NCBI GenBank assembly: GCA_021300155.1
Contig: JAJTID010000120.1
Location: forward strand, 1-38,931
DNA: 38,931 bases
Direction of reading: 5' to 3'
Origin: Pirellula sp.
GTDB taxonomy: Bacteria > Planctomycetota > Planctomycetia > Pirellulales > Pirellulaceae
The notes under the pieces were generated by a model. It was not told where the DNA came from. It worked only from the letters and a program-made list of their open reading frames with translations, and made no database searches. Shown one piece after another: positions 7,825 through 26,664 of the stretch (position 1 is its first letter; each line of letters opens with the position of its first letter). The position numbers and the translations under genes were made by a program.

Positions 7825-10800
7825 ATGCACATTCGCAAACTGCTTTCCCTTGGCTGTCTCTTGTTGCTCACGTCTACGCCAGAGCAGGGGAGGGGGGAGC
7901 CACAGGATTATTCTACGCAACTCCCTCGAATTGCCCCTCGGACTCCCGCGGATTCGATCGCTACGATGACGATCGCCCCGGGCTATCGGATAGAATTGGT
8001 TGCAAGCGAACCCCATGTTTTCGACCCAGTTGCGATCGCCTTCGACGAGTCATCGCGTCTGTATGCAGTCGAAATGTGCGATTATTCGGAACAAGAAACC
8101 GAACATCTTGGAAACGTACGTCTACTTGAAGACAGAGATCGCAATGGCTCCTACGAGACTAGCATTCTTTTCGCAGAAAAACTCTCTTGGCCTACAGCGA
8201 TCGCTTGCTACGACGGGGGAGTTTTCGTCGGCGCTGCACCTGATATCTGGTATCTCAAAGACACAAACGGTGATGGCGCAGCCGACATTCGCGAAAAGGT
8301 GTTTACCGGCTTCGGACGGAGCAATGTCCAGGGATTGTTGAATAGCTTTTGTTGGGGACTCGACAATCGGCTCTATGGACAAACAAGCAGTTCCGGTGGC
8401 ACAATCACGCGCCCCGATGTCGCTGACTCAAAACCCGTCTCCTTGGGTGGTCGCGATTTCTCCTTCGACCCGCGAACTCGCGACATTCGCTCCGAAAGCG
8501 GTGGAGGTCAGCACGGTATGTCGTTCGACGATTGGGGGAATCGATTCTCGTGTCAGAATAGCGACCACCTCCAATTGCATGTGTACGACGAAAGTTACCA
8601 AAAGCCCGACAATCTACTACCTCTCCCCTCCATTCGACAGAGCATTGCCATCGACGGCCCACAAGCGACGGTCTACCGCCGAAGTGAAGTCGAACCATGG
8701 CGGATCTTGCGCACCAATCTGCGCGTGACGAAGCAAGTAACAGGACTCGTCGAAGGGGGGGGACGTCCAAGTGGTTACTTTACTAGCGCGACTGGTATCA
8801 CGATTTATCGAGGGGATGCGATGCCCGAACTACGTGGCCTAGCCTTCGTCGGTGATGTCGGGAGCAATATCGTTCATCGCAAACGATTAAAGCCTAACGG
8901 AGTCAGCATGGTCGGCGAACGGATCGATCAAGACTCGGAGTTCATCGCGGCAACCGATATCTGGTTTCGACCTGTTCAGTTTTCCAATGCTCCAGACGGC
9001 AGCCTTTTCCTTCTGGATCTCTATCGCGAAGTAATCGAACATCCGAAATCGCTACCCGAAGTCATCAAGAAGCATCTTGATTTGACCAGCGGTCGAGATC
9101 GAGGGCGACTCTATCGAATCATCCCCAACAAGGGACTCGCAACTCGCGACACGGATTTGAAGAAGCGGTCGACGGATGAACTGATCGAATTGTTGGGACA
9201 CTCCAATAGTTGGCATCGCGAAACGGCTGCACAGTTGCTGGCGAACCATATTTCGGAGGGGAATAAAACATCGCCAACCGATGCCAGTAACTTGCTTCAG
9301 AAAATTGACGCGACTGCATCACGCATTGAACATGGTGAAGGGAAACTGCAGTGCCTCGGAGTACTTAGCTACTTTCGTCATTTGCCGGCAAATCCAAGTG
9401 TATGGCTGAAACATGAAGATCCCCGGGTCCGGTCTTATGCGGTCCGACTCTTGGAACCGATGGCAAACGTCGATGCATCGCTACGCAGTGACATGCGAAA
9501 TCTCGCAACGGATGCCAATAACCGCGTTCGATTTCAAGTGGCATTAACTCTCGTAGCCTTACCTCAAATCGATGCAGAGCAACAGGAGCAATCGATTGCA
9601 GTAAAGTCAATGTTAAAGTCGACCAACAATGACCCATCGCTCGAATCAGCAGCAGCCAATGCTTCGCGCCCATTTCTTGCTGACTTCTCCAACGAGATAA
9701 TTGCCAGCGGAGCAGGGCAGGGGGGGCAATTCAATCCGTGGTCCGAGTCCGCCAGTTTACTCGTTGGCCGGTGCTTTGCACTTGCTGCTAGCGAAACCGA
9801 AATTCAAGCAATCGACAAGCGGCTGACCCTTTCGCCGAATACACCGAATGTGGTGGCTTCTTGGGTGAAGGGCTGCCTTCGTGGTCTTGCGACTCGCTGG
9901 AAATACGATCTGAAAAAGCTGGAGACCTGCCCTCAATTGGCGAAGGTTGTTCAGCAATCTATTGAGCAAAGCAAACTGTCCGGTATCACAGAGCAGCTAT
10001 CTCTGTCTCAAAAACTAGATGCGATTCAATCGATTCGATGGAGTCGTTCGAATGAAAGTGCAGATTTGTTGTTTCGCTGGATGGATCTTCGAGAACCTTC
10101 GGAGGTACAACTCGCCGCCCTCGATGGGATCGCTTCGTGTGCGAATGAAGAAGTCATCAACAAGTTGATCACCAAATACACGTCCTTGTCACCATCGATC
10201 CGTACTAAAGCGGCTGATTTGCTCTTGTCGAAAAAAGGGTGGCTAGAAATTTTGCTGAGAAGGGCAGGGGAGGGGGGATTCGATTTGCAGGACTTGGACG
10301 CAAGTCGTCAGAACGCACTGCAACAACATGCGGATTCTGCCATTCGCGAAAAAGCCAATTCGTTACTCGGTCGATCAACGAATTCGAATCGAGAAGAAGT
10401 GCTAGCCAAATACCGCGAGTCCCTCTCCCTTCGAGGGAACCAAGGGATAGGGAAACAGCATTTTGCAAAATCCTGTGCGGCATGCCACCGACTCGATGGT
10501 GTCGGATACGAGCTGGGACCGAACTTAGCGACGTTCAAGTATCGTGGCGCAGAGGCCATTCTCCAAAACGTGATCGACCCAAACCGCGAAGTGAACCCGC
10601 AGTACATCAGCTATACGATCTTGACTACGGATGATCGAACCATAACAGGGATGATCGAATCGGAAACAGCGACCCATATAACGCTTGTACGGGGCGACAA
10701 TGCCCGTGATACCATTCCTCGCTCGGAAATCGAACAACTCAAGAGTTCCCGAGTCTCCATCATGCCTGAGGGGTTGGAGAATCAGCTCAATCCGCAATCA

Positions 10801-10839: not shown

Positions 10840-10925
10840 CCGCGATGTTAAACCTTTCCGCCTAGGCTGTTTTTGCTTATAGTGAGACGGGTAGAGTCAT
10901 GGAAAAGCCTTGTTTTTCTTGCACC

Positions 10926-10942
10926 AGGGTAGGGCAGGGGGG
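10926..10942 (+). repeat. KOPS-like G-rich repeat, copy 4 (+)
   Basis: AGGGTAGGGCAGGGGGG, with overlapping GGGTAGGG and GGGCAGGG, lies in the leader 36 bases before the kinase ATG. A bare GGGAAGGG on the same strand follows inside the kinase gene at about 11055. Confidence 0.85.
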
Positions 10943-10977
10943 CTGCAAAATGCCTCCTCTCCGTTATCAGGCAACAA

Positions 10978-11880
10978 ATGGTCAAAGTTCGTGACTTTCT
11001 CGGCCGCTATCGGCTGGCGAGACTTATTCGCCTCGGTAGCACCTGCCAGGTGTGGGAAGGGATCAAGGATGATGGTAGCCACTACGCACTCAAGGTATTG
11101 CGTCCTGAACAGCGAGGGAACAAAACCGAAATCGGCTTCCTTAAGCATGAGTTCGAAGTTGCCAGTAATCTCAATCACAAGAATATCATCAAACTTATCG
11201 AGTACTGTACCGACTCGGAAACGCCATTTATCGTTTTGGAATTGTTCAGTGAAATCAACTTGAAGCAAGCGCTTCGGCGCGGCCCAGAACCGATTTCTTA
11301 CATGCTGACCAGCATGGTCGAGCAGATCGTTGAATCGTTGTACTACTTTCACAGCAAAGGGTACGTGCATTGCGATATCAAGCCGGACAACATTCTGGTG
11401 AATCGAGATGGTATGATCAAGCTCATCGACTTTACCATTGCAAAGAAAGTTAAGACCGGTATTGGAAAGCTCTTCGGTGGTGGTTCGAAAGTCGAAGGGA
11501 CTCGATCCTATATGTCGCCGGAACAGATTCGCGGCCAATCCTTGGATGCACGAAGCGATATCTACTCTCTTGGCTGCCTATTGTATGAATTGTTGACCGG
11601 GAAAGCCCCTTTCACTGGCAACACTCCAAACGACTTACTTAGTAAACATCTTTCGGCCACTCCTCCATCGGTCCTCGTGGTGAACGACAATGTTACACCA
11701 GAATTTAATAACCTGATCAAGAAGCTAATGGCCAAGAAACCAGAAGACCGGCCACAGTCTATGTGGGATGTGCTCAAGACAGTTCGTGCCACCCCGATCT
11801 TCAAGAAGCCTCCACGCATCCCTGAAACTTCGATCTTCGACGACTTTCCTACAGGTGGTCGAATGGAAAATCCATCGTAG
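10978..11880 (+). CDS. Serine/threonine protein kinase-like protein with altered DFG
   Basis: A 300-residue soluble Hanks-type kinase domain with almost nothing outside it and no membrane segment. Visible elements are the VAIK-type YALKVL lysine, HCDIKPDN as the catalytic loop (HRD changed to HCD but the Asp kept), LIDFT where DFG is normal, SPE in place of APE, and the conserved SDIYSLGCLLYELLTG helix. The nucleotide loop RLGSTCQVWEG lacks two of the usual glycines. The metal-binding Asp of DFG is present, so weak activity is possible, but the loop and DFT changes suggest an atypical or regulatory kinase. It stands alone between the heme-binding protein and accA; the substrate is unknown. 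No strong Shine-Dalgarno precedes the ATG. Confidence 0.85.
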   Translation: MVKVRDFLGRYRLARLIRLGSTCQVWEGIKDDGSHYALKVLRPEQRGNKTEIGFLKHEFEVASNLNHKNIIKLIEYCTDSETPFIVLELFSEINLKQALRRGPEPISYMLTSMVEQIVESLYYFHSKGYVHCDIKPDNILVNRDGMIKLIDFTIAKKVKTGIGKLFGGGSKVEGTRSYMSPEQIRGQSLDARSDIYSLGCLLYELLTGKAPFTGNTPNDLLSKHLSATPPSVLVVNDNVTPEFNNLIKKLMAKKPEDRPQSMWDVLKTVRATPIFKKPPRIPETSIFDDFPTGGRMENPS

Positions 11881-11936
11881 TTCTCATTACTGCATTTAGA
11901 CGACCTAAACCACTTTCGCGATTATCAACAACCATC

Positions 11937-12944
11937 ATGGAATCAACTCCTCCTGGATTCGAATTCGAACAACCTATGCTGGATCTCGAGAACCAACTCA
12001 AGCAGTTGGAACAAAATCCAAGCCATACACCAGAGGAAGAGCAACAGATCAATGCGATTCGTCGTCAATGGACCGACACGACTCGCAAAATCTACTCCAA
12101 CCTAACACCATGGCAAATCGTTCAGGTGTCGCGACATAAGGATCGCCCCTACACGAAGGACTATCTCAATTTAGCATTCGATGAGTTTTTCGAACTGCAT
12201 GGAGATAAGTTCTTTGGCGATGATCGAGCTATGCTCACCGGCTTCGCTAAACTTGGAAGGCACAAGGTGATGGTCGTCGGGCATCAAAAAGGGAGGACCT
12301 ACAAAGAACGAACTGCATGCCACTTCGGATGCGCGCATCCCGAAGGTTATCGAAAAGCTATGTCCAAAATGGAAATGGCCGAGAAGTACGGTTTGCCTAT
12401 AGTTTGCTTCATCGACACTCCCGGCGCTTATCCCGGCATCGGAGCCGAAGAACGAGGCCAAGCGCAAGTGATCGCCGAAAGCATGTTTTTAATGAGCCAA
12501 CTCAAAGTACCTGTGATCTGTGTCGTTATCGGCGAAGGAGGATCAGGAGGTGCGTTGGGGATCGGTGTCGGCAACAAGATTGCCATGCTCCAAAACGCCT
12601 ACTATTCGGTCATTAGCCCCGAAGGTTGCGCGGGCATCCTATGGAAGAGCCATCAGTTCGCGTCCAAAGCGGCTGATGCATTGCGTTTTACATCCTCCCA
12701 TCTTCTGAAGCTCGGCGTTGTCGACGATGTCATCGAGGAGCCACTCGGTGGAGCGCATCGAGATCATCACCAAATGGCTTCTCGTCTAAAGAATTACCTT
12801 TCCCGAACTCTCGATCAACTTCTCAAACGATCCCCTGACGAGTTGGCAAACGATCGTTATGAGAAGTTTCGACGGATGGGTACCTATCTCGAAACCATGG
12901 AAGACGGCAGCGTCCTAACGCACGGCCACTCCGTAACTTCGTAA
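11937..12944 (+). CDS. accA: Acetyl-CoA carboxylase carboxyltransferase subunit alpha
   Basis: A 335-residue alpha subunit of the carboxyltransferase that moves the carboxyl group from carboxybiotin to acetyl-CoA in the first committed step of fatty acid synthesis. It has the family order: an N-terminal helical pair (LENQLKQLEQ), the RPYTKDYL segment, GDDRAMLTGFAKL, the GRTYKER and PEGYRKAMSKMEMA region, then FIDTPGAYPGIGAEERGQ and GEGGSGGALGIGVG, which form the acyl-CoA and oxyanion sites. The length is normal. Its partner accD is 18 kb away on the other strand (30759-31595), so the two subunits are not co-transcribed here. The ATG at 11937 gives the normal N-terminus. Confidence 0.96.
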   Translation: MESTPPGFEFEQPMLDLENQLKQLEQNPSHTPEEEQQINAIRRQWTDTTRKIYSNLTPWQIVQVSRHKDRPYTKDYLNLAFDEFFELHGDKFFGDDRAMLTGFAKLGRHKVMVVGHQKGRTYKERTACHFGCAHPEGYRKAMSKMEMAEKYGLPIVCFIDTPGAYPGIGAEERGQAQVIAESMFLMSQLKVPVICVVIGEGGSGGALGIGVGNKIAMLQNAYYSVISPEGCAGILWKSHQFASKAADALRFTSSHLLKLGVVDDVIEEPLGGAHRDHHQMASRLKNYLSRTLDQLLKRSPDELANDRYEKFRRMGTYLETMEDGSVLTHGHSVTS

Positions 12945-13137
12945 CGGCCGATTTCACCATCTGTGGATATTCGACTTAAACCTAAAGCGTCGCTAAACAA
13001 CTCCATGGCAAGTGGAGCAGGGTAGCCACGTTCGGCATGAGAAGTTAGCCACGTTTGCCAGATCATGGTTTTCCCCTGGAGCCACTACGGTCTGTCGAAC
13101 GTAGCTACGCGTTTAAAAACTAAGCCTCGAGCTCATC

Positions 13138-13154
13138 GGGGCAGGGCAGGGGGG
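13138..13154 (+). repeat. KOPS-like G-rich repeat, copy 5 (+)
   Basis: GGGGCAGGGCAGGGGGG, a full-length consensus copy with two overlapping GGGCAGGG octamers, in non-coding DNA downstream of accA. Confidence 0.9.
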
Positions 13155-14535: not shown

Positions 14536-15567
14536 TCAAGTATAGCGATTGCGTAGATCTTGAGCCCATCGCCCTACCCTAAAACCAAAGAACTGCAGCC
14601 AAAGGAACGCAAGAAACAAAAGTGATTGCTGAACGATCGCCTCCACCGCATACACCGACCACGGCAATCGGCGGGGCAGGGCAGGGGGGGCCGGGTAGGA
14701 CATATAGGTAGCGATGGCTTGATTTCCACTGGCAATCTCCATGCCTGTCGCACTATCCAATTCGCGGCTGATCTCACCTGCAAGCTTACTCTCCAGGGCG
14801 TCTGTACCGAGAATAGCAACACCTGTGCTGGTCTCCCAATAAACCTGCCCAGTTCCCCAACGAACGAACATGAAGCACGGGATCCAAACAACCAATGCGG
14901 CCAACCGATACGACTTGGCCCGAAGGATGGCCCAGGTAATGAGCCATTGAAACGGGAGAAGCAAACCGCCGATCAAGGCGCTAATGAACGGCTTCAGTTC
15001 GATCGGAAACCAATGAAACATGGATGCATTTGAAGACCCGGTAGGAACCGGCGTGATCAAGATTCGATACGCAAGCGATCCGCATCCAACCAAAAACATG
15101 AGGAACAGAAGCTTGCGAACGCTCAACTTGGCCGGCGGTTTTACTGCGCCCCCCGCCCTCTCCTTCCCTGACCGAATTCCCGCCGAGTCGCTCCAGATCC
15201 CAACCGATATGCTCCATTGCAAGTACCTAGCCACCACCACACCCATCAAGAAATACAAACTCCAGTGAATGAGGTTCGAGACCAATGCATCTTGGAGGAC
15301 GTTTCCCTCCAAGCCTCGAAGCATGATCCCGTTCCAAACAGCGAACGATGAAAACGCGAGTATTCCAACAGTGAGTAAATCCCGTTGGTTGATGCTGTTC
15401 TTCCATCCCAACCACATGCACGCGACAGTTGCTGGGCAGAACAGAATCATGCCGGCAACTTGCGAGAGATGTCGCTCCTCGGGAAATTGCAAATTCAGCC
15501 ATCGAGCCAAACCGCCGAGCATCCATACGACAACGAGGGTTAGGCAAATCGTGCGGGCAGATGACAC
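14536..15567 (-). CDS. Polytopic membrane protein of unknown function
   Basis: A 343-residue protein with about nine hydrophobic segments, starting with a membrane helix at residues 8-22 and continuing through FCPATVACMWLGW, SLYFLMGVVVARYL, LLFLMFLVGCGSLAY, LIGGLLLPFQWLITWAIL, LAALVVWIPCFMF and a C-terminal FLAFLWLQFFGF. I do not recognise a family. A soluble loop of about 65 residues lies between the last helices. Two G-rich repeat sequences fall in loops: a degenerate one in the central loop (KERAGGAVK) and a full copy encoding PAPPALPRR, consistent with insertion where sequence is unconstrained. It is upstream of the beta-lactamase-like gene and probably co-transcribed with it. Confidence 0.75.
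   Translation of the reverse strand: MSSARTICLTLVVVWMLGGLARWLNLQFPEERHLSQVAGMILFCPATVACMWLGWKNSINQRDLLTVGILAFSSFAVWNGIMLRGLEGNVLQDALVSNLIHWSLYFLMGVVVARYLQWSISVGIWSDSAGIRSGKERAGGAVKPPAKLSVRKLLFLMFLVGCGSLAYRILITPVPTGSSNASMFHWFPIELKPFISALIGGLLLPFQWLITWAILRAKSYRLAALVVWIPCFMFVRWGTGQVYWETSTGVAILGTDALESKLAGEISRELDSATGMEIASGNQAIATYMSYPAPPALPRRLPWSVYAVEAIVQQSLLFLAFLWLQFFGFRVGRWAQDLRNRYT
14673..14690 (+). repeat. KOPS-like G-rich repeat, copy 6 (+)
   Basis: GGGGCAGGGCAGGGGGGG, a full-length consensus copy on the strand opposite to the gene it lies in, where it reads as PAPPALPR in a loop of the membrane protein. It also fits the four-run G-quadruplex pattern. Confidence 0.9.
15148..15170 (-). repeat. 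Degenerate G-rich repeat of opposite polarity
   Basis: On the minus strand this reads CAGGGAAGGAGAGGGCGGGG followed by more Gs. It resembles the family but contains no exact GGGNAGGG, and it is the only extended copy whose G strand does not match its side of the pivot. Confidence 0.4.
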
Positions 15568-15804: not shown

Positions 15805-15822
15805 AGGGCTAGGGCAGGGGAG
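15805..15822 (+). repeat. KOPS-like G-rich repeat, copy 7 (+), last before the switch
   Basis: AGGGCTAGGGCAGGGGAG contains GGGCAGGG. It is the rightmost copy with its G strand on + and lies about 310 bases left of the dif-like site. Confidence 0.85.
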
Positions 15823-16128: not shown

Positions 16129-16156
16129 ACCGAACATAAGAAACATTATCGGACGT
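16129..16156 (-). other. dif: Candidate dif site (XerC/XerD recombination site)
   Basis: On the minus strand: 11-base arm ACGTCCGATAA, 6-base spacer TGTTTC, 11-base arm TTATGTTCGGT. E. coli dif has arm GGTGCGCATAA, spacer TGTATA, arm TTATGTTAAAT. The inner dyad ATAA-N6-TTAT, the start of the spacer (TGT) and the XerD-side TTATGTT are identical; I count 18 of 28 matches, with mismatches concentrated in the outer arms as is usual between phyla. It lies in non-coding DNA exactly between the last + strand and first - strand G-rich polar repeats. It would be the site of chromosome dimer resolution activated by FtsK. Assignment rests on sequence pattern and position only. Confidence 0.65.
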
Positions 16157-16591: not shown

Positions 16592-16608
16592 CCCGCCCTG
16601 CCCTGCCC
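16592..16608 (-). repeat. KOPS-like G-rich repeat, copy 8 (-), first after the switch
   Basis: CCCGCCCTGCCCTGCCC on +, that is GGGCAGGGCAGGGCGGG on -, with two GGGCAGGG octamers. It is the first copy right of the dif-like site (about 440 bases away) and the first with its G strand on -. Confidence 0.9.
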
Positions 16609-17329: not shown

Positions 17330-17412
17330 TTGATTCCAGTACAGTCGTACGTGTATCTTGATTCCAGTACAGTCGTACGTGTATCTTGACTCCAGTACAA
17401 ACGTACGGGTTC
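17330..17412 (+). promoter_or_regulatory. Triple 28-bp tandem repeat, probable BlaI operator/promoter
   Basis: Two identical 28-base units and a third diverged one, each beginning TTGATTCC or TTGACTCC and containing a dyad. The first two carry TACAGTCGTACGTGTA, with outer TACA/TGTA halves as in BlaI/MecI operators and a CGTACG core; the third has TACAAACGTACG. The array ends 30 bases before the blaI-like ATG, so autoregulation by the BlaI protein is likely. Each unit also offers a TTGA(C/T) -35-like element. Confidence 0.7.
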
Positions 17413-17442: not shown

Positions 17443-17832
17443 ATGGCGAAAAGACCCGCTCTTTCGAAGGGAGAGATGGTGGTGGCACGATTGCTGTGGG
17501 ACCACTCCCCTGCCACGGTTCGGCAGATCCACACCGCCCTGCCCTCCCCTCAAGATATGGACTTCTCTACCGTCCAAACCTATCTGCGTCGACTTGAGAC
17601 CAAAGGCTACGCGTCGTCGGTTCTGCAAGGAAAAACAAGGATCTACTCGGCCAAGGCGAAAGCGGCTGCCGTCGTCAAAGCGACCGTCGACGAGCTCGTC
17701 TCTCGCCTCTTCGGCGGATCCACGATGCCGCTGATGCGTCATCTCATCGAGGAACGGTCCGTTTCAGCCGATGAGCTTTCCGAACTTCGCCAGTTGATCG
17801 AGCGTTTAGAAAAGGAAAGGAACTCCGAATGA
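17443..17832 (+). CDS. BlaI/MecI-family winged-helix repressor
   Basis: A 129-residue repressor of the penicillinase-repressor family (PF03965). ATG 17443 is preferred over an in-frame start at 17419 because GGAGG sits six bases ahead and the family starts at ..LSKGEMVVARLLWD. Helices of the winged-helix domain run over residues 7-70, with the recognition segment DFSTVQTYLRRLETKGY and the wing GKTRIYSA. The C-terminal dimerisation helices include MRHLIEERSVSADELSELRQLIERLE. The stop overlaps the ATG of the next gene (ATGA), so it is translationally coupled to the BlaR1-like gene, the standard sensor-repressor pair. The linker ALPSPQ is encoded by a G-rich repeat copy. BlaI proteins bind TACA/TGTA dyads such as those just upstream. 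Confidence 0.92.
   Translation: MAKRPALSKGEMVVARLLWDHSPATVRQIHTALPSPQDMDFSTVQTYLRRLETKGYASSVLQGKTRIYSAKAKAAAVVKATVDELVSRLFGGSTMPLMRHLIEERSVSADELSELRQLIERLEKERNSE
17534..17550 (-). repeat. KOPS-like G-rich repeat, copy 9 (-)
   Basis: On the minus strand AGGGGAGGGCAGGGCGG, with GGGGAGGG and GGGCAGGG. It is read on the coding strand as TALPSPQ between helices of the BlaI-like protein. Confidence 0.85.
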
Positions 17833-18044: not shown

Positions 18045-20054
18045 TTGCCAACCGAAGCTTCCGATTCCCTTAGAACCACCGAGTACATCACGTACTCCAC
18101 TCAACCAACAAGTTCATTGCTCTCACAACTAACAGAAGAACCATCTTCGACACAGAATGCGAACGATTCGTCGAAGCTCAATCCTTCGTGGCAATCGTAC
18201 CTTGCAAACACGGAACGCACGCTGATTGTGTTTTGGATTGGCTCCATCGCCTTCGTGATCGCAGTTTGGGCAAGTCGCTTCGTTCATGCCCTTCATCGGT
18301 TGCGTTTGCATCGCATTGATACACCCGAACGAGTGAAGAAGATTGCGGATGATCTTGCGCAATTGCTGTCGCTTCGCCAAAAGATTTGCGTTCAGGTCAG
18401 TAACGAACGAATCGGGCCGGCAGTTATAGGATGGCTTCGTCCGCGAATTCTGCTCCCTTCCTTCTTGGTCGACCGAATGGACGATGAGGCGCTCCGCATA
18501 TTGATTGCTCACGAGATGACGCACATTCAGCGAGGGGATTTATTCTGGACTTTTCTTCAAACGGTCGCCGGGAGTCTCTGGTGGTTTCATCCCGCAGTAT
18601 GGATTGCGAATCGACAACTCAATCTAGAGTGCGAACGAAGCTGTGATGAAGAAACCATTGCACGCTTGGAATGCCCTCCGAGCGATTATGCAAAGTGTCT
18701 GCTGCAAGTATTGGAATGGAAGCATCAGTTGTATGTTGTGCCCGCGCTGCCGGGCGTACGACCAATGCAGATTACTAAGGATCGATTGGAAAGGATTATG
18801 AAAATGAGACATGGATGTTTCAAGAAAAACTCGAGAGGACTTTGGCTCGCGATGGCGGCTGCCGTCCTATTGGTGGCCCCCGGTGCCGAATATGGTATCA
18901 GCCAGCAATCGACAACTACACCACAGGAACCAGCCAACGTTGCGAAGCAACCGACCAAGGCGCAACTCGAGGGAACTGTTAACTCCGATTTAGGAGTCGC
19001 TGGCCAAGTAGTCGTAGAACAGACTCCTGCTGTCCAGAAGGCCATTCGTGTGACGAGAGTTTATGACGCCTCAGATCTCATCGAAAGATTCGTTGCGGAC
19101 CATGCAGCCAATAAGGAAGATGCACCTAGAATCCTCGAAAACATGTTGGCATGCTATGAAACTCAGCCGATCCCCCAACCTGGAATCGCTAATTCAACTG
19201 CCGTTCCCACGGCGCCCCCTGCCCCGCCCAATTCGAGCTCAAAACGGGACGGCGAGTTTTCCCTTCGTAATGGCCAGTTCTCGGCGACCACCTCTGAAGC
19301 AAACCACGAACTGATCAATAACCGACTGGCTCGATTCCGCGAATTCGGATTTAGAACACTAGACTGTTCTGTAGAAGTTTTTTGTGGTCCCGATGAATTA
19401 TCGCTGGACGGTTTGAAATGGCAGAGTATCAACACTGAATATAGAGGGCAAATCAACGTGACTGAAAACGTGACTTGGGAGATGGTGGTCCTAGATCGTT
19501 CGCAAGCGAACAGCATTAAGGAGTTCGTCGCGGCCCAAGATCGAATCGTACGACTGATGTCACCAAATCTGTTGCTCTACAATGGCTCTCCGGGTTCTGT
19601 CATGGTTGTAACTAGCATCTCAAATTTGCCATCCGGCAGATCGCAAAGCGTGCCGGATGCGATCGAAAATTTTTTTGATGGCGTCCGTGTTGATTTGTTG
19701 GCAAAGATTCGCCCCGAAAATCGCGTTTGGGTCGAATATAGGCTTTCGGAATTTCATCGAGAGGGGGAACCGGTTCCACCAACGATGCACAAGAAACGTC
19801 GTTTTTTATTCATCGACACCGCGGTAGAACTACTCAAAGATGATTATGTGGCGTATCGACTACACGTCCCCGAGCTGGAGTCCCCTCTGAAGGGAAAGTG
19901 TTACTTTTTCTTGATTCACGCCGAGCCTTTCAAAACCCAATGGAAATTGACAAAAGTACTGCCCGAAGCTGCTAATGCAAATGCAAAACAGAGCTCATCG
20001 AGTGACTTGAGCACCCACAAAGTCATCGCTATTCCGCGTTTCGACCTCGAATAG
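18045..20054 (+). CDS. BlaR1-like M56 zinc metallopeptidase, main part (possibly a broken gene)
   Basis: The continuation of the frame from 17829 after the in-frame TAG, 669 residues if it starts at the TTG 18045. A third membrane helix (TLIVFWIGSIAFVIAVWASRFV) precedes the zinc peptidase domain: HEMTH (HExxH) at 18510-18524, the downstream WWFHPAVW helix, and NLECERSCDEE supplying the third ligand. A fourth helix (LWLAMAAAVLLVAPGAEYG) leads to an extracytoplasmic C-terminal part of about 390 residues that does not resemble a penicillin-binding sensor domain. In BlaR1 systems a signal activates the peptidase, which removes BlaI. Without the first two helices the topology would be wrong, so either the gene is inactivated, the TAG is read through or is an error, or translation restarts. 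One G-rich repeat encodes TAPPAPPN in the sensor region. Confidence 0.8.
   Translation: MPTEASDSLRTTEYITYSTQPTSSLLSQLTEEPSSTQNANDSSKLNPSWQSYLANTERTLIVFWIGSIAFVIAVWASRFVHALHRLRLHRIDTPERVKKIADDLAQLLSLRQKICVQVSNERIGPAVIGWLRPRILLPSFLVDRMDDEALRILIAHEMTHIQRGDLFWTFLQTVAGSLWWFHPAVWIANRQLNLECERSCDEETIARLECPPSDYAKCLLQVLEWKHQLYVVPALPGVRPMQITKDRLERIMKMRHGCFKKNSRGLWLAMAAAVLLVAPGAEYGISQQSTTTPQEPANVAKQPTKAQLEGTVNSDLGVAGQVVVEQTPAVQKAIRVTRVYDASDLIERFVADHAANKEDAPRILENMLACYETQPIPQPGIANSTAVPTAPPAPPNSSSKRDGEFSLRNGQFSATTSEANHELINNRLARFREFGFRTLDCSVEVFCGPDELSLDGLKWQSINTEYRGQINVTENVTWEMVVLDRSQANSIKEFVAAQDRIVRLMSPNLLLYNGSPGSVMVVTSISNLPSGRSQSVPDAIENFFDGVRVDLLAKIRPENRVWVEYRLSEFHREGEPVPPTMHKKRRFLFIDTAVELLKDDYVAYRLHVPELESPLKGKCYFFLIHAEPFKTQWKLTKVLPEAANANAKQSSSSDLSTHKVIAIPRFDLE
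19214..19229 (-). repeat. KOPS-like G-rich repeat, copy 10 (-)
   Basis: GCCCCCTGCCCCGCCC on +; the minus strand carries GGGCAGGG. It encodes APPAPP in the C-terminal part of the M56 protein. Confidence 0.8.
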
Positions 20055-20092: not shown

Positions 20093-21235
20093 ATGAAACT
20101 TGCTTTTTCGTTCCCCCCCTGCCCTGCCCTGATAATCGCTTTCGGACTAGTAGTTTTTTTAGAAGCCCATCTGCAAAGGACTTCGGCTCAATCCCCTGCG
20201 GTATCAATTCCCGAACTGGGACAAAAGCTGAGCGATGAACAAGCAGCTAACCTTTCGAAATTGGCGATCGATGGATTGCACCGGGAGTATCCGAACAAAC
20301 CTGGCAATGTTGTCACGAGTCCTGAAACGGTGCTCAGTCCCAAACAGATGCACCCTGCCTTCTACGGTTGTTTCGATTGGCACAGCAGTGTGCATGGACA
20401 TTGGATGTTGGTCCGACTGCTAAAGACGAACCCAACACACTCGCTTGCCGATGCTACCCGTAAAGGCTTGGCCATCAGCTTGACTCCAGAAAACATCTTA
20501 ATCGAAGCCGCCTACTTCGATGAGAAAGAGAACAAGTCGTTTGAAAGAATGTATGGTTGGGCTTGGTTGCTGCGCCTGGCTGCCGAGTTGCACACATGGG
20601 AGGATTCGCAAGGGAAGCAATGGCGAGTTGCACTACAACCTTTGGAAGCGAAGATCGTAGAGTTGGCGATGCTCTATCTTCCGAAATTGAAGCAACCGAT
20701 CCGCACAGGAGTCCATCCTGACGCGGCTTTTGCATTGGGTCAGTTTCTCGACTACGCCAGAATCGTTGGCAACCAAGAATTGGAGCAACTCGTGGTTGCA
20801 CGCGCAAACGACTACTATGCGATGGATCGAAACTACAACTCCGAATACGAACCATCCGGCGAAGACTTCTTTTCCCCAAGTCTCAATGAAGCCGATTTGA
20901 TGAGAAGGATTTTGCCTCAAGCTGAATTCGCCCAATGGCTTACTGCCTTCTTGCCTGATCTGAAAGTGAATTCGAAAAGTAAACTGCTTCAACCCGTAAT
21001 CGTCAGCGATGTAACCGATGGAAAGTTAGTGCATCTCGCCGGCTTGGATCTATCGCGAGCTTGGTGTATGCAGGGGATCGCGCAAGGGCTCCCATCGAAT
21101 GATCCACGCGTTGGGATGCTCAAGCGTTCCGCAATCGAGCACGCAAAGATGGGTTTAGGCTATGTCTTCAGCGGTCATTACGAAGGCGAACATTGGCTCG
21201 GCACCTTCGCCGTCTATACGCTAACGATGCAATAG
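20093..21235 (+). CDS. Exported DUF2891-family protein
   Basis: A 380-residue protein matching the DUF2891 pattern: HPAFYGCFDWHSSVHGHW near residue 90, YGWAWLLRLAAEL, IRTGVHPDAAFALGQFLDYA, YEPSGEDFFSPSLNEADLMRR, LVHLAGLDLSRAWCMQGIA and a final GEHWLGTFAVYTL. The alternating helices and conserved His/Trp/Asp residues suggest an alpha/alpha-barrel like that of glycan-active enzymes, but no activity is established. The first 30 residues form a signal peptide, and its hydrophobic core (PPCPALIIAFGL) is partly encoded by a G-rich repeat copy. It begins 38 bases after the M56 gene, on the same strand, and may be part of the BlaI-controlled operon. Confidence 0.85.
   Translation: MKLAFSFPPCPALIIAFGLVVFLEAHLQRTSAQSPAVSIPELGQKLSDEQAANLSKLAIDGLHREYPNKPGNVVTSPETVLSPKQMHPAFYGCFDWHSSVHGHWMLVRLLKTNPTHSLADATRKGLAISLTPENILIEAAYFDEKENKSFERMYGWAWLLRLAAELHTWEDSQGKQWRVALQPLEAKIVELAMLYLPKLKQPIRTGVHPDAAFALGQFLDYARIVGNQELEQLVVARANDYYAMDRNYNSEYEPSGEDFFSPSLNEADLMRRILPQAEFAQWLTAFLPDLKVNSKSKLLQPVIVSDVTDGKLVHLAGLDLSRAWCMQGIAQGLPSNDPRVGMLKRSAIEHAKMGLGYVFSGHYEGEHWLGTFAVYTLTMQ
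20113..20130 (-). repeat. KOPS-like G-rich repeat, copy 11 (-)
   Basis: CCCCCCCTGCCCTGCCCT on +, with two GGGCAGGG octamers on -. It lies inside the signal peptide coding sequence of the DUF2891 protein as PPCPAL. Confidence 0.9.
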
Positions 21236-21362
21236 CAGCCCCCCTTTCGTCGCAGAGGCTGTTTACGCAGTTCGCAACGCGAGGCGACCAAGCTGCTTGT
21301 CTCGCTCAAGCGACCACGCTGTTCTTCATCCACAGGCTACCACGCTGCTCGCAAAGCTAAGG
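21236..21362 (+). repeat. Degenerate REP half-sites left of the BIME units
   Basis: Non-coding DNA with partial copies of the REP 5' half: AAGCTGCTTGTC, CGACCACGCTGTTC and GGCTACCACGCTGCTCGC, none followed by a complete right half-stem. These look like decayed or truncated REP ends. Confidence 0.6.
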
Positions 21363-21631
21363 CTACCACGCTGCTCGCCAGCGTGGAGCCATAGCCGCAA
21401 CCAGACCGAAGAAAATTCGCGAGCCGACGCCACCACGCTGCTTGTCAGCGTGGGGCGATGGTCAGGCTGCGTACCCCAACCAGACCACCATCCTACGTTG
21501 GCAATCAACGCAGTGATGAAACCCCTCGCTTCCGCGAGGCTGGTTACGGCTATCGTCCCACGTTGACGAGCAACGTGGTAACGATGAGTATTGCTTCGCA
21601 ATGCGAAGGACGATACGGATCCGACTTCCCC
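21363..21631 (+). repeat. REP/BIME composite unit 1 (complete)
   Basis: About 270 bp with four REP hairpins: 21366-21386 (CCACGCTG-CTCGC-CAGCGTGG), 21433-21453, then the inverted pair 21493-21513 (CTACGTTG...CAACGCAG) and 21558-21578 (CCACGTTG...CAACGTGG). A short hairpin CCTCGC...GCGAGG lies at 21524-21539. Flanks such as AGCCGCAACCAG and CTGGTTACGGCT also pair, making the unit a nested imperfect palindrome. Confidence 0.9.
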
Positions 21632-21702
21632 ACTTTTTGCCCATATACAGGTCACCATACTACTCGCCGAGATCTGGCTACCACGCTGCTCGCCAAGCAA
21701 AG

Positions 21703-21803
21703 GCTACCACGCTGCTCGCCAGCGTGGGGCCATAGCCGCAACCAGAAAGCAAAAAACGCGAGAGGCGACGCCACCACGCTGCTTGCCAGCGTGGTGCGAT
21801 GGT
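21703..21803 (+). repeat. REP/BIME composite unit 2 (truncated)
   Basis: Contains only the first two hairpins of the unit (21707-21727 and 21774-21794), then leaves the repeat sequence 82 bases before the transposase ATG. A lone half-site GGCTACCACGCTGCTCGCC precedes it at 21676. Confidence 0.85.
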
Positions 21804-21885
21804 TGCGTCCTAATGACCAAGCCTTCAAAATCACTTACAATTTCCACTTCGCTACGATCAATGCAATTGTCGATGGAATTTCATC

Positions 21886-22677
21886 ATGCCATCTCTTTCG
21901 ACGTCAACTCAGATATACACACCTAGCAACTGCACATTTTCAGCACCGCTACTTTGGTCTGTTAGCTTGTTTTGGAACGAACCCGAGCCAAATGACTCTT
22001 GGACAGAAGCTTTGATTCGCGACTTACGGAAGGACGACATTCGGCTGTTGCGGCATCACTTCTCTGATATGCAAACAAGCCACTTGACCGTATCGACGAA
22101 GATCGGCGACGCGCCATCGTTTATCGTTCAGCGGGTCAAAGGCAGGCACTACTATTTGGTCAAGCAACGTAAACCGAAGCCTTTTCACGGAAACTTTGCC
22201 ATTCGTTCTATTGGGAAGTCATCACTAGCAGAGACTCAACAGTATGTAATGAATCAGCTTGGGCATCACAAGATGGCTGATCCTGATCTGCAATCGAACT
22301 TAGAGACCTTGCAGATTCGGAACGAGGATGTAGACCTCAGCCGGTTGGAAACGTCATCTCACGGAGCATATTGGTACAATTTGCATATGGTGTTCGTCCA
22401 TCGGGAACGATGGAGTACATCGAACGTTTTTCAGTTGGAGCGGGTTCAGCAAAAGATCATTTCAGTTGCAAAGTTGAATGGATTGAGATTAGCGGCTGCG
22501 GGAGTGCTGACCGATCACGTTCATTTATTGGCGGGTTGTCCTTATGCCCTATCTCCACAAGACATTGCGATCGAATTTCTAAATGCGTTGGCAAGTGTAT
22601 GGGATTCAAAGCCAGTCTATCAATTTGGCGGCTACGTCGGAACAGTCGGCGACTACACAACCAATGCGATTACGTAG
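21886..22677 (+). CDS. REP-associated tyrosine transposase (RAYT, Y1/HUH family)
   Basis: A 263-residue protein of the IS200/IS605-related REP-associated transposase group. The HUH metal site is DHVHLLAG at about residue 212; a candidate catalytic tyrosine lies about 45 residues later in GGYVGTVGDY. The preceding YWYNLHMVFVHRERW segment and the YVMNQLGHHKMADP segment match RAYT-like proteins I associate with planctomycetes. RAYTs cut and join single-stranded DNA at REP hairpins and stay as single-copy domesticated genes. Complete and partial REP units lie on both sides (21363-21803 and 22741-23390), the classic arrangement. The ATG at 21886 is the first in frame. It is intact, so activity is possible. 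Confidence 0.85.
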   Translation: MPSLSTSTQIYTPSNCTFSAPLLWSVSLFWNEPEPNDSWTEALIRDLRKDDIRLLRHHFSDMQTSHLTVSTKIGDAPSFIVQRVKGRHYYLVKQRKPKPFHGNFAIRSIGKSSLAETQQYVMNQLGHHKMADPDLQSNLETLQIRNEDVDLSRLETSSHGAYWYNLHMVFVHRERWSTSNVFQLERVQQKIISVAKLNGLRLAAAGVLTDHVHLLAGCPYALSPQDIAIEFLNALASVWDSKPVYQFGGYVGTVGDYTTNAIT

Positions 22678-22740
22678 CGAGCAATCCGTGGAGCGATCGC
22701 TGTCCGCTTCGTCGCTATGCTCCCAGTAAGCCACTTTCAG

Positions 22741-22792
22741 GCTACAACGCTGCTTGTCGAGCTCCGGCTACCACGCTGCTTGCCACGCCCAG
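22741..22792 (+). repeat. REP half-sites right of the transposase gene
   Basis: GGCTACAACGCTGCTTGTC and GGCTACCACGCTGCTTGCC occur 27 bases apart without complete right half-stems, mirroring the decayed sites on the left side. Confidence 0.65.
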
Positions 22793-23069
22793 GCTACCAC
22801 GCTGCTCGCCAGCGTGGGGCCATAGCCGTAACCAGAACGCAAAAAATGCGAGGCGACGCCACCACGCTGCTTGTCAGCGTGGGGCGATGGTCAGATCGCG
22901 CACCCCAACCTAACCACCATCCTACGTTGGCAAGCAACGCAGTGATGAAACCCCTCGCTTCCGCGAGGCTGGTTACTGCTATCGTCCCACGTTGGCAAGC
23001 AACGTGGTAACGATGGGTTTTGCTTCGCAATGCGAAGGACGATACGCATCCGACTTCCCACTTCTTGCC
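22793..23069 (+). repeat. REP/BIME composite unit 3 (complete)
   Basis: Same order as unit 1: hairpins at 22797-22817, 22862-22882, 22922-22942 and 22987-23007, with the short CCTCGC/GCGAGG hairpin at 22953-22968. The unit ends with TTGCTTCGCAATGCGAAGGA and a diverging tail. Confidence 0.9.
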
Positions 23070-23143
23070 GTAGTTAGGTCATCAAACAAAGGGTTTCTTA
23101 CTGCTAACCAGGCTGATGTTGGCACGCTGCACGCCACGCGCAG

Positions 23144-23390
23144 GCTACCACGCTGCTCGCCAGCGCGGGGCCATAGCCGTAACCAGAACGCAAAAAACGC
23201 GAGGCGACGCCACCACGCTGCTTGTCAGCGTGGGGCGATGGTCAGGCTGCGTACTCAATCTGGCCAGCATCCTACGTTGGCAAGCAACGTAGTGATGAGA
23301 CCTCTCGCTTCCGCGAGGCTGGTTACGGCTATCGTCCCACGTTGGCAAGCAACATGGTAACGATGGGCTTTGCTTCGCAATGCGAGGAGA
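23144..23390 (+). repeat. REP/BIME composite unit 4 (complete)
   Basis: Hairpins at 23148-23168, 23213-23233, 23272-23292 and 23337-23357. The third hairpin is fully paired here (CTACGTTG/CAACGTAG), unlike in units 1 and 3. The first and last stems each carry one change that breaks a pair. It ends 15 bases from the cvpA stop codon. Confidence 0.9.
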
Positions 23391-23404
23391 CTACACGAAA
23401 CCGA

Positions 23405-24268
23405 CTACCGAGGAAGAATATCGTTTGGCCAATTCGGATTGGTGTTTCCATTCGGCCAAGTGTTATTCTGCGAGTTGTTCGCCGGCCACGGATTCGTTGC
23501 TGGCGGTTGTGTGCTAGGAGTGGTCGATGGCCCGTTCCAGAAGCCCCCCCCTGCCCCGTTCGAGTTGTTACCGGTGTTGTTTGGATTGGCCCCAAATGGA
23601 TTGGTGATACCCCCCTGCTCTGCCATTCGACCCAGGTTATCGAGTATCCCCCCCTGCCCTGCCCCAGAATTCACAGGAAATCCAAGCGGTGACGATGGGT
23701 TCGTCCCCCAAGTATCGGTACCAAACTGGCCATTACTCATTTGCCCCTGTTGAAGCTTTTTCTCCACGTTATCGAGGTAAGGCCCGACCACCTGCTTGAT
23801 CTCTTTCGGCAACAATCCATCCGCGTTTGCCAAGAATCGACTGATGTAACGACCGCTGCTCGAGTTCGCAATCCGTTGCTGCTGCGCTGGCCCCAATAGA
23901 GTCATCGCAAACATGGTAATCAACAAACAAATCAACACGCCTTTCACTAAACCAAAGCCTGCACCGAGCTGCCGATCGAAGTCTCGCAGCTTGATCTTAT
24001 CAATGGAGGTGCTCACCAATCGAAATGCCATCCATATCACGAAGCTGGAGCCGAAGTACAGAAGCAACATCGCCAGAAAGAGATTCCAAGGTGGATCGGC
24101 GTTGATCATCTTCGCTACATCATTCCTGAAAAAGTATGCAACGAAGTAGCTAGCAACAATCGAAGCGACAGATGCCAACTGCCAAGCAAAACCCTTGATC
24201 GCCCCAAAGATTGTCGTCGACGCCAAGACGATAAGCATGACGATGTCATATGTTTGCATTGCTAGCAT
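23405..24268 (-). CDS. CvpA-family membrane protein with low-complexity C-terminus
   Basis: A 287-residue protein. Residues 1-150 are the CvpA domain (PF02674): four membrane helices with YDIVMLIVLASTTIFGAIKGFAWQLAS at the start and the family's G-x-G-x-x-K-G turn (LGAGFGLVKGVLICLL). CvpA proteins are inner-membrane proteins with roles in envelope stress and colicin V export in enterics; the role here is unknown. The last ~110 residues are rich in Asn, Gly, Pro, Gln and Trp (PNNTGNNSNGAGGG, TNPNWPNDILPR) and look disordered. Three G-rich repeat copies encode SGAGQGG, EQGG and GAGGG in this tail. A second start three codons downstream (24259) is possible. Confidence 0.88.
   Translation of the reverse strand: MLAMQTYDIVMLIVLASTTIFGAIKGFAWQLASVASIVASYFVAYFFRNDVAKMINADPPWNLFLAMLLLYFGSSFVIWMAFRLVSTSIDKIKLRDFDRQLGAGFGLVKGVLICLLITMFAMTLLGPAQQQRIANSSSGRYISRFLANADGLLPKEIKQVVGPYLDNVEKKLQQGQMSNGQFGTDTWGTNPSSPLGFPVNSGAGQGGILDNLGRMAEQGGITNPFGANPNNTGNNSNGAGGGFWNGPSTTPSTQPPATNPWPANNSQNNTWPNGNTNPNWPNDILPR
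23544..23557 (-). repeat. KOPS-like G-rich repeat, copy 12 (-)
   Basis: CCCCCCCTGCCCC on +, giving GGGGCAGGGGGGG on -, in the cvpA tail as GAGGG. Confidence 0.85.
23610..23624 (-). repeat. KOPS-like G-rich repeat, copy 13 (-), degenerate
   Basis: On the minus strand GGCAGAGCAGGGGG; one base spoils the octamer (GAGCAGGG). It encodes AEQGG in the cvpA tail. Confidence 0.65.
23648..23665 (-). repeat. KOPS-like G-rich repeat, copy 14 (-)
   Basis: CCCCCCCTGCCCTGCCCC on +, a full consensus copy with two octamers on -, in the cvpA tail as GAGQGG. Confidence 0.9.
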
Positions 24269-24450
24269 TCCTACGCATATCCTGAGTTGTAACTTCCACT
24301 GGGACTATAGCGAGACATCCCCTCAATCGTAAAGACCGAACGGTCGCCATCGGCGAGTGAGTCGTCATAACGATTATGCCACCCAACCTTAGTTTTCAAA
24401 CTTCACACATCACACTTCAAACTTCTCCGTAGTTCTGCTACTTTCCCAAC

Positions 24451-24465
24451 TCCCCTGCCCTGTTC
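24451..24465 (-). repeat. KOPS-like G-rich repeat, copy 15 (-)
   Basis: TCCCCTGCCCTGTTC on +; GGGCAGGG on -. It lies in non-coding DNA 27 bases before the YdjM-like gene. Confidence 0.8.
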
Positions 24466-24491
24466 TGGTTCTTGGTGTAACGAGAAATCCT

Positions 24492-25214
24492 ATGGCCGAC
24501 TATCGCACACATATGATTGTCAGCACGACTGCTGGCGTGCTATATGGACTGGGTGGTTTTCAATCGGGACTACCCATAGAAAGTTGTATCATCGGCGGCG
24601 CTTTATGCAGTGTCAGTGGCATGCTCCCTGACTTGGATAGCGATTCAGGTATCCCATTGCGAGAGGCGGTAGGGTTTGCCTCGGCGTTTATACCTATGCT
24701 TATGGTCGATCGACTGCAGCGGATCGGCATGTCGCATGAGAGGATGCTGGTTACAACCATCGTTGTTTATTTCTGTCTCCGATTTGGAATCGCGGAATTG
24801 TTTCGTCGCTACACCGTCCATCGTGGGATGTGGCACAGCATGCCTGCGGCGATTTCTGCCGCGTTGTTCGCATTTTTAGCTTGCTCCTGCGAGCATATGG
24901 GGCTCCGGCTATTCAAGACCCTGGCGATCTTCATCGGCTTTATGTCTCACATTCTGCTAGACGAAATCTGGTCCATCGAGTTTCGCCGAGGACGCTATAC
25001 CTTCAAACATAGCTTTGGAACAGCGCTCAAGTTCTGGAGCAACAGTCGTGTTGCGAATATCTTCAGTTATCTTCTTCTAGCAATCCTCTGTACCCTGGCT
25101 TACTATGATGAAGGTCTCATGCAGCGTTTCGGTTATAAAGCGCAATCGCCACAGACCGCCGTCGACTGGCTAAACCAATTGCGACAGCATTCGCAAAATC
25201 TATTAACCAGGTAA
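24492..25214 (+). CDS. YdjM-like inner-membrane protein (metal-dependent hydrolase-like family)
   Basis: A 240-residue protein of the YdjM family (PF04307, LexA-regulated membrane-bound metal-dependent hydrolase-like). The hallmarks are MADYRTHMIVS at the start, the acidic GGALCSVSGMLPDLDSDSG motif around residue 45, and HRGMWHSMPAA near residue 110, followed by FMSHILLDE; these His/Asp residues form the presumed metal site. Several hydrophobic helices place it in the inner membrane. Its activity is unproven. Its stop is one base before the ATG of the GH13 gene, so the two are co-transcribed. Confidence 0.88.
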   Translation: MADYRTHMIVSTTAGVLYGLGGFQSGLPIESCIIGGALCSVSGMLPDLDSDSGIPLREAVGFASAFIPMLMVDRLQRIGMSHERMLVTTIVVYFCLRFGIAELFRRYTVHRGMWHSMPAAISAALFAFLACSCEHMGLRLFKTLAIFIGFMSHILLDEIWSIEFRRGRYTFKHSFGTALKFWSNSRVANIFSYLLLAILCTLAYYDEGLMQRFGYKAQSPQTAVDWLNQLRQHSQNLLTR

Positions 25215-25215
25215 T

Positions 25216-26664
25216 ATGCTTTATCAAATCAATACGCGGGCACTGCTAAACGAAATTGCCCGTGATTGCGGTCGTTCGGTGACACTGGACGACATCCCGG
25301 ATGCAATACTCGATCGTTGGCAGTCGATGGGATTCGAGTGGATATGGCTCTTGAGCGTTTGGCAGACCGGGGACGCGGCCCGACAAGTTTCACGATCGCA
25401 TCATGACTGGCAACAGGAATTCGCACGCAACCTGCCTGATCTGCGAGAAGACGACATCCAAGGCTCTGGATTTGCAATCACCGACTATCATGTGCACCAG
25501 CAGATGGGCGGAGATGAATCGTTGGCTCGACTGCGCGAACGCCTGAAGGCTCGTGGTTTGAAGCTCATGCTCGACTTCGTACCCAATCATATGGCACCAG
25601 ACCATGTTTGGATCGAGTCGCATCCGGAGTGGTTCATTACTGGCACCGAAGAACAACTTCGCCGCGAGCCTCAAAACTATTTTCGACATCCCTCGGGTCA
25701 AGTCTTCGCGTTCGGCCGCGACCCTTACTTCTCAGGTTGGCCAGACACAATTCAATTGGACTATAGCTCCCCTGCCCTGCTCCAAGCGATGGATGGCGAG
25801 ATGCAACGTATCGCTTCTCAATGCGATGGTGTGCGATGCGATATGGCGATGCTGATTCAACCCGATGTCTTTCAACGAACCTGGGGCCGCCCTGCCCTCC
25901 CCTTCTGGGAACAAACGATCCAACAAATCAAAAGCAACGATCCGAAGTTTTGCTTTTTAGCTGAAGTTTATTGGGATCGCGAATGGGAACTGCAACAACT
26001 GGGCTTCGACTATTGTTACGACAAAAGGCTCTACGATCGACTGTTGCACGAGAATGCAAGATCCGTTCACATGCACTTGGTCGCAGGTCTCGATTACCAA
26101 AATCGACAAGCGCGCTTTCTTGAGAACCACGACGAGCCACGGATCGCTTCTGTCCTTGAGAAGAGTAAACACTTTGCCGCTGCCATCGTTTGCTATTTGA
26201 CACCAGGTCTACAGTTCTTCCATGAGGGACAATTCGAAGGCCGGCGGATCAAGATATCACCACATCTCGTCAGGCGTCCTGTTGAAGAACAGAACCCCGA
26301 AATCGCGGGATTCTACGAACGATTACGAGGACTTCTAAAGCTCCCCATGAGAACAGATGCCAAGTGGCTACTATTGGATGCGAAACCCGCATGGGATGGC
26401 AATACGAGTCACGAATCCCTCATTTGTTTTCGTTGGAAGAGCCCTGACAATCGTCAACTGGTTATCGCTGTCAATTACTCGGATAAACCATCGCAAGGGC
26501 GATTACGAATAAACATCGACAGCAGTTGCGTTGCCGAGGTCGTATGGCACGAGTGGATGACGAACACAATCCTACGTCATCATCGTGGTGAGCTATTCAA
26601 CCCTGGAATGCTCCTCGACTTGGCTCCGTGGGAGTACCGTGTTTTGCTCGAAACGGACGATTGA
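25216..26664 (+). CDS. Alpha-amylase-family (GH13) glycoside hydrolase
   Basis: A 482-residue cytoplasmic GH13 enzyme without signal peptide. The four conserved regions are present: DFVPNH (I), DGVRCDMA with the nucleophile Asp (II), FLAEVYW with the acid/base Glu (III), and FLENHDEPR with the transition-state Asp (IV). A C-terminal beta domain ends at LAPWEYRVLLE. The (beta/alpha)8 barrel begins almost at residue 1, so no N-terminal CBM is present. The substrate is not clear: an alpha-glucan or sucrose/trehalose-type sugar is possible. Two G-rich repeat copies read in frame as SSPALLQA and GRPALPFW in barrel loops. Translation starts one base after the YdjM-like stop. Confidence 0.9.
   Translation: MLYQINTRALLNEIARDCGRSVTLDDIPDAILDRWQSMGFEWIWLLSVWQTGDAARQVSRSHHDWQQEFARNLPDLREDDIQGSGFAITDYHVHQQMGGDESLARLRERLKARGLKLMLDFVPNHMAPDHVWIESHPEWFITGTEEQLRREPQNYFRHPSGQVFAFGRDPYFSGWPDTIQLDYSSPALLQAMDGEMQRIASQCDGVRCDMAMLIQPDVFQRTWGRPALPFWEQTIQQIKSNDPKFCFLAEVYWDREWELQQLGFDYCYDKRLYDRLLHENARSVHMHLVAGLDYQNRQARFLENHDEPRIASVLEKSKHFAAAIVCYLTPGLQFFHEGQFEGRRIKISPHLVRRPVEEQNPEIAGFYERLRGLLKLPMRTDAKWLLLDAKPAWDGNTSHESLICFRWKSPDNRQLVIAVNYSDKPSQGRLRINIDSSCVAEVVWHEWMTNTILRHHRGELFNPGMLLDLAPWEYRVLLETDD
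25767..25783 (-). repeat. KOPS-like G-rich repeat, copy 16 (-)
   Basis: CTCCCCTGCCCTGCTCC on +; GGGCAGGG on -. It encodes SPALL inside the GH13 barrel. Confidence 0.85.
25887..25904 (-). repeat. KOPS-like G-rich repeat, copy 17 (-), rightmost
   Basis: On the minus strand AAGGGGAGGGCAGGGCGG, with GGGGAGGG and GGGCAGGG. It encodes RPALPF in the GH13 gene. I saw no further full copy to the end of the window. Confidence 0.85.

Follow-up and report, generated by a model that had tools for sequence, protein, structure and literature searches.

A converging array of KOPS-like motifs around a predicted dif site in a Pirellula contig (Planctomycetota)

The FtsK-orienting polar sequences (KOPS) of Escherichia coli and Vibrio cholerae are copies of the octamer GGGNAGGG, which is read by the gamma domain of FtsK (PMC2533119). 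In E. coli, KOPS lie along the whole chromosome, with one copy per ~12 kb inside and outside the FtsK-active region (PMC3140498), whereas a review has their concentration rise toward the dimer-resolution site dif and describes a dif activation zone (DAZ) of ~10 kb on each side of dif, in which KOPS converge (PMC5357621). The octamer GAGAAGGG of the SpoIIIE recognition sequences (SRS) of Bacillus subtilis differs from GGGNAGGG and is likewise a polar guide for a pump of the FtsK family (PMC9764985). No paper describing KOPS or dif of Planctomycetes was found in the literature searched, subscription papers being mostly outside reach. To our knowledge, Planctomycetes divide without FtsZ. Here we describe an array of KOPS-like octamers in a window (i.e. 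the whole stretch of DNA analysed) of 38,931 nucleotides from Pirellula sp., contig JAJTID010000120.1 of assembly GCA_021300155.1. We read the array, with a probability of about 0.92, as the predicted KOPS of this planctomycete, which converge on a predicted dif at 16129-16156 and would load FtsK and point it there.

A first-pass annotation of the window, made from its letters alone, had noted KOPS-like motifs between 7.9 and 25.9 kb that converge on one spot at ~16.1 kb, with no full copies in 1-7.8 kb or 26-38.9 kb. This observation is confirmed. The window contains 27 exact GGGNAGGG octamers (2.76 expected; 0 of 100 shuffles reach that count) and 15 matches to the 17-mer consensus at up to three mismatches (0.07 expected), and the exact-match scan found no octamer in either flank. 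Inward polarity was found for 26 of the 27 octamers (binomial p 4e-7): G is on the + strand in 12/13 octamers left of 16.14 kb and on the - strand in 14/14 octamers right of it, with a gap of 776 bp between the last + copy and the first - copy. The octamers group into 18 clusters spread over ~18 kb, 17 of them inward; nine clusters are overlapping pairs with a 5-base step (Table 1). Both exceptions listed in the annotation, a bare octamer of opposite polarity (GGGTAGGG) and a degenerate copy, are real; a further bare octamer (GGGAAGGG), which may be due to chance, had gone unmentioned. Genes contain seven of the clusters in sense and six in antisense orientation, and the other five are intergenic; this mixture, with differing codon offsets, excludes a protein repeat as their cause. 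The N position of the octamer is occupied by C in 71% of cases, and the extended consensus, which is the same in genus and family, is GGGCA-GGGCA-GGG(G/C)(A/G)GG. The window had no matches in Rfam and tRNA scans.

The array has in common with the KOPS of E. coli and V. cholerae the octamer itself, the inward polarity and the switch at dif, and with the DAZ of E. coli the convergence within ~10 kb on either side. It is also longer in consensus and denser, as the annotation had stated: E. coli K-12 has five octamers within 10 kb of dif (5 inward, 0 outward) versus 27 in the window, i.e. the array is ~5 times denser. Further differences are that the copies in the window overlap naturally, whereas the Vibrio study constructed a triple overlapping GGGCAGGG for use as a test substrate (PMC2533119), and that the motif becomes rare outside the dif region. 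The genome contains 89 copies of GGGCAGGG (reversed control, 114 in total), of which 20 lie within ~16 kb around dif and all point inward, a density that sets this zone apart from the DAZ; the remaining 69 amount to ~one per 93 kb. For GGGCAGGGCAGGGG, ten matches at up to one mismatch were found in the whole 6.46-Mb genome (reversed control, 3), all ten in the contig of the window, and there is no similar cluster elsewhere in this genome.

Inside the gap at the polarity switch, for which the annotation named no site, lies the 28-mer ACCGAACATAA-GAAACA-TTATCGGACGT. This candidate is very likely the chromosome dimer-resolution site (dif), at which recombination would take place by analogy with the known dif/XerCD sites. 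It resembles these in its layout of two 11-bp arms and a 6-bp centre, in its single core, its variable centre and its place at the KOPS junction, and XerC and XerD are encoded in the genome; the arms ACCGAACATAA and TTATCGGACGT differ from the known ones, and the inner part AACATAA-6-TTAT is common to the predicted dif and E. coli dif. When up to two mismatches are allowed, the 17-base core has a single match in the genome (6.46 Mb). An 18-base core was found at up to two mismatches in 118/149 genomes of the family, usually once in each, against 29/149 for the reversed control, and the arms with a free centre were found at up to one mismatch in 169/294 genomes of the phylum, against seven for the control (both controls by our own reading).

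For comparison across relatives, up to 10 kb on either side of dif were taken from 60 genomes, chosen by us among the 118 with a match, and together with the window these make 61 loci; one (L081) is without dif by the strict pattern and was included through a wider one. At these loci the arm letters are conserved and the centre is the most variable part, with eight forms. The six bases to the right of the 18-mer, which are outside the search pattern, are GGACGT at 58 loci and AGACGT at three; the four bases to the left are ACCG at 49 and ATAC at 10. Such a combination of conserved arms with a changing centre would be expected of a Xer recombination site. In the inner dyad, 4/6 positions pair, versus 6/6 in E. 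coli. A dif prediction that used a filter of 'more than four pairs' failed in Planctomycetes (0/1; Kono et al. 2011, PMC3025954), which the weaker dyad may, in our view, explain.

Other observations were made on dif-like sites. In a scan of named genomes (257 billion bases, in which a few chance matches are expected), the dif-like pattern was also present in other phyla among the matches listed, e.g. L243, L282 (Alicyclobacillus) and L305 (Chlamydiae). Also among the matches listed, two planctomycete contigs (L260:2031-2136 and L292:4966-5061) each carry two inverted dif-like sites within ~100 bp, which are perhaps dif-using mobile elements. Three planctomycete genomes (G237, G256, G418) have three dif-like sites each, with differing centres, perhaps on secondary replicons or in integrated elements.

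As to the proteins, the search of the genome gave a single FtsK gamma domain; it belongs to an FtsK of 1032 amino acids that also has 4TM, alpha and FtsK_SpoIIIE domains. XerD (355 bits) and XerC (348 bits) both score over the NCBIfam cut-off. The FtsK at L213:1315-4410 carries 67 residues, many of them charged, after the gamma domain; in E. coli FtsK, the gamma domain is the extreme C-terminus. The gamma domain was aligned to solved FtsK gamma chains, including 2ve8 and 2ve9, which we take to be those of Pseudomonas aeruginosa. Chain 2j5p is the gamma domain of E. coli FtsK (PMC9764985), for which N1296, R1300 and E1303 are described as reading residues (PMC2533119); their mapping onto the alignment is ours. 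In the reading helix IGYGRAARLID the arginine is kept, with G in place of N1296 and D in place of E1303, i.e. two of the three residues differ from those of E. coli, and these alterations may go with the extended motif.

The inward polarity recurs in the relatives, which the annotation had named as a check. Within 10 kb of dif, 694 copies of GGGNAGGG point inward and 36 outward in the 61 loci (694/730; 690:36 in 60 loci without L081). Inward copies outnumber outward copies in 60/61 loci and are present on both sides of dif in 57/61; the exception is an 11-kb piece (L121; one inward versus two outward). When octamer families with one free position (N) were ranked by polarity, families seen fewer than 20 times being left unranked, GGGNAGGG took first place both among the 131,067 families counted outside the genus (57 loci; 591:31) and among the 122,571 counted in the four genus loci (103:5). 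In five whole genomes, 71/71 matches to GGGNAGGGCAGGG point toward dif, as measured along the shorter arc (reversed control, 5). Outside the family, 12 genomes were searched and 10 had matches, of which 40/43 placed matches point toward dif (two on other contigs of G363 are left out, and genome lengths are rounded). Outside the genus (57 loci; L072-L131 minus L104-L106), only 36 inward copies lie within 2 kb of dif versus 184 at 2-4 kb, and the jump at ~2 kb is seen on both sides; no such poor zone exists in the genus. Conserved genes (accA, a kinase, cvpA-like and YdjM-like) fill much of this zone, which may reflect gene constraint or a spacing rule.

How local the motif is varies among genomes. 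In a complete congener (G105; 6,534,136 bases), polarity and density peak at dif, a test that the annotation had proposed: 23 copies of GGGNAGGG are inward and one is outward within 10 kb, and 16 of the 28 extended matches to the looser pattern GGGNAGGGNRGGG (reversed control, 23) lie within 50 kb of dif, all 16 inward, with seven inward and five outward beyond. The share of extended matches on the dif contig or contigs is 14/15 (G146), 15/19 (G010), 9/11 (G136), 7/18 (G074) and 2/17 (G123) in draft congeners, all of those on dif contigs being inward by our own reading, and 10/11 in the genome of the window. The motif is concentrated near dif in the window's genome and in several congeners, G123 excepted. 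In a genome of another genus (G028), polarity is kept over megabases (29/29 toward dif); the bias along whole arms that is typical of E. coli KOPS is found there, and not in the sampled stretches of G105. Tentatively, and at somewhat less than even odds, we suggest that the FtsK guide of the Pirellula lineage, once a chromosome-wide signal, has become a local landing strip, with overlapping multi-KOPS within ~10-15 kb of dif and few copies elsewhere, a gamma domain with altered contacts, and FtsK loading almost only at the terminus.

The motifs could instead be polar replication-fork barriers (Ter/Tus- or RTP-like) that form a fork trap at the terminus, with dif merely inside it. Such traps can also surround dif with opposite polarity on each side, and the array is local in the genome of the window; the polarity over megabases in G028 is unlike a trap, and we consider this explanation improbable. 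The unbiased octamer ranking selects GGGNAGGG, an FtsK with a gamma domain is encoded, and the motif contains the exact KOPS octamer of E. coli and Vibrio (PMC2533119). Still less credible is that G-runs are selected as such (G-quadruplexes, Chi-like sites or leading-strand G skew) and that the KOPS octamer is incidental. Every copy is G-rich, and GGGNGGGG (143:37), GGGTNGGG (108:58) and the reversed control GGGANGGG (130:53) lean inward too, though they are able to overlap KOPS copies. In the same 61 loci, GGGNTGGG (90:87) and GGGNCGGG (78:72) have no polarity, and the lean of GGGANGGG is gone (40:45) after masking of the KOPS octamers, so it is due to overlap with KOPS copies; Chi sites would moreover be expected throughout the genome. 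A dispersed minisatellite or mobile repeat, spread around 16 kb by chance, can be set aside, since Tandem Repeats Finder gave no array at the motif copies, which resemble possible slippage products in their 5-base step, except one that begins at 15817, in the region flanking the copy at 15812, since the clusters are mixed in strand, codon offset and genic placement, and since the inward polarity recurs at other loci. The Chi-like and minisatellite alternatives, both raised in the annotation, would not yield the polarity obtained by summing over the 61 dif loci; these and the G-quadruplex reading were rejected on this polarity, the octamer ranking and the masked control.

Several results weigh against the KOPS/dif interpretation. 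The 28-mer is identical to E. coli dif at 17/28 positions, which equals the best chance 28-mer in 49 kb of E. coli; the reversed control of the dif core still matched the 29 family genomes mentioned above, and 31/149 have no dif match at up to two mismatches, some of them with the motif. G and D at the positions of N1296 and E1303 were found in 119/119 readable sequences of the 120 closest homologues, i.e. two of the three KOPS-reading residues differ throughout. The lack of concentration at dif in G123 belongs here too. In G105, a chromosome-wide KOPS skew as in E. coli is not seen, and an extremum of the cumulative GC skew at dif, named as a test in the annotation, was not borne out: beyond 500 kb, 84 copies are inward versus 69 outward in the sampled stretches, and the GC skew, sampled at 80 places (60 of 20 kb and 20 of 4 kb; 1.28 of 6.53 Mb), is noisy with its minimum at 4.86 Mb versus dif at 4.66 Mb. 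Between dif and the longer DnaA gene lies 33-50% of the chromosome in 6/8 genomes, but 29% in the congener G105 and 3.5% in one genome.

GC skew was dropped as support for the terminus because of the noisy curve with its minimum off dif. In all eight complete Pirellulaceae chromosomes that were searched, the DnaA C-terminal domain gave two matches, far apart from each other; DnaA position was rejected as an origin marker for these two matches per genome and the mixed outcome.

For the KOPS/dif interpretation itself, in which the annotation was largely right and most of the tests it had set turned out in its favour, the DNA directly provides the motif, the polarity switch at a 28-bp site, the single core, the recurrence with the same convergence in relatives, and the genes for FtsK, XerC and XerD. 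Array and site are very likely the KOPS/dif system of Planctomycetes, with binding, loading and recombination proposed by analogy. The FtsK gamma domain would read the GGGNAGGG motif as in E. coli and Vibrio (review, PMC5357621), and FtsK hexamers, loaded on it in a single orientation, would travel along the DNA to dif and there activate recombination by XerC/XerD, so that chromosome dimers would be resolved where the cells part. In the genome of the window the guide would be local, with overlapping copies (GGGCA-GGGCA-GGG) within 10 kb of dif; given how few copies there are elsewhere, FtsK would load mainly at the terminus and not along the whole arms. If the more tentative landing-strip reading is true, the FtsK of a budding, FtsZ-less cell would load almost only at the terminus. 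A known dif with its KOPS would provide cis-acting sites for testing DNA pumping by FtsK apart from any divisome role, and would mark the terminus in genomes with a GC skew too weak for this purpose. The dif-concentrated guide of this genome and the chromosome-wide guide of G028 form a natural comparison of how far KOPS must reach.

Table 1. Positions of KOPS-like copies, the predicted dif and conserved neighbour genes in the window
Feature	Position	Strand	Basis
KOPS-like, GCAGGGGAGGGGGG	7887..7894	+	exact octamer and 17-mer scans
KOPS-like, GCAGGGCAGGGGGG	9715..9722	+	exact octamer and 17-mer scans
Double overlapping KOPS-like, GGGCAGGGGAGGG	10262..10274	+	exact octamer and 17-mer scans
Double overlapping KOPS-like, GGGTAGGGCAGGG	10927..10939	+	exact octamer and 17-mer scans
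Bare octamer GGGAAGGG, may be chance	11054..11061	+	exact octamer scan
accA, conserved dif neighbour in family	11937..12944	+	PF03255, 451 bits; family in 57/61 dif loci
Double overlapping KOPS-like, GGGCAGGGCAGGG	13139..13151	+	exact octamer and 17-mer scans
Bare octamer GGGTAGGG, opposite polarity, sole exact exception	14572..14579	-	exact octamer scan
Double overlapping KOPS-like, GGGCAGGGCAGGG	14674..14686	+	exact octamer and 17-mer scans
Degenerate copy	near 15148-15170		read by eye
KOPS-like, last + copy before predicted dif	15812..15819	+	exact octamer and 17-mer scans
Predicted dif, 28-mer	16129..16156	+	inside gap at polarity switch
XerD-type arm ACCGAACATAA	16129-16139	+	putative assignment, E. 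coli dif comparison
Central hexamer GAAACA	16140-16145	+	part of predicted dif
XerC-type arm TTATCGGACGT	16146-16156	+	putative assignment, E. coli dif comparison
Double overlapping KOPS-like, first - copy after predicted dif	16596..16608	-	exact octamer and 17-mer scans
Double overlapping KOPS-like, GGGGAGGGCAGGG	17537..17549	-	exact octamer and 17-mer scans
KOPS-like	19217..19224	-	exact octamer and 17-mer scans
Double overlapping KOPS-like, GGGCAGGGCAGGG	20117..20129	-	exact octamer and 17-mer scans
cvpA-like, conserved dif neighbour in family	23405..24268	-	PF02674, 89 bits; family in 54/61 dif loci
KOPS-like, in cvpA-like gene	23549..23556	-	exact octamer scan
Degenerate copy without exact octamer (ATGGCAGAGCAGGGGGG)	23610..23626	-	17-mer scan
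Double overlapping KOPS-like, in cvpA-like gene	23652..23664	-	exact octamer and 17-mer scans
KOPS-like	24453..24460	-	exact octamer scan
KOPS-like, in alpha-amylase-like gene	25770..25777	-	exact octamer and 17-mer scans
Double overlapping KOPS-like, outermost - copy	25890..25902	-	exact octamer and 17-mer scans

Among the neighbour genes, accA lies left and cvpA right of dif in the four genus loci, opposite to most other loci, the two genes being separated by ~2 to 10.5 kb of other DNA; since the sides are swapped and other DNA intervenes, the array is not inherited with one fixed gene set.

Two other repeats were observed in the window. Inside the array, at 21300-23400, repeated short palindromic-looking units (accacgctgct...agcgtgg) form an island that resembles repetitive extragenic palindromes (REP) with their associated tyrosine transposases (RAYT), and a Y1/IS200-like transposase gene (21886-22677) is surrounded by these units. 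A 28-bp tandem repeat (17330-17407) lies directly upstream of genes for a BlaI-like repressor and a BlaR1-like protein and may be an operator.

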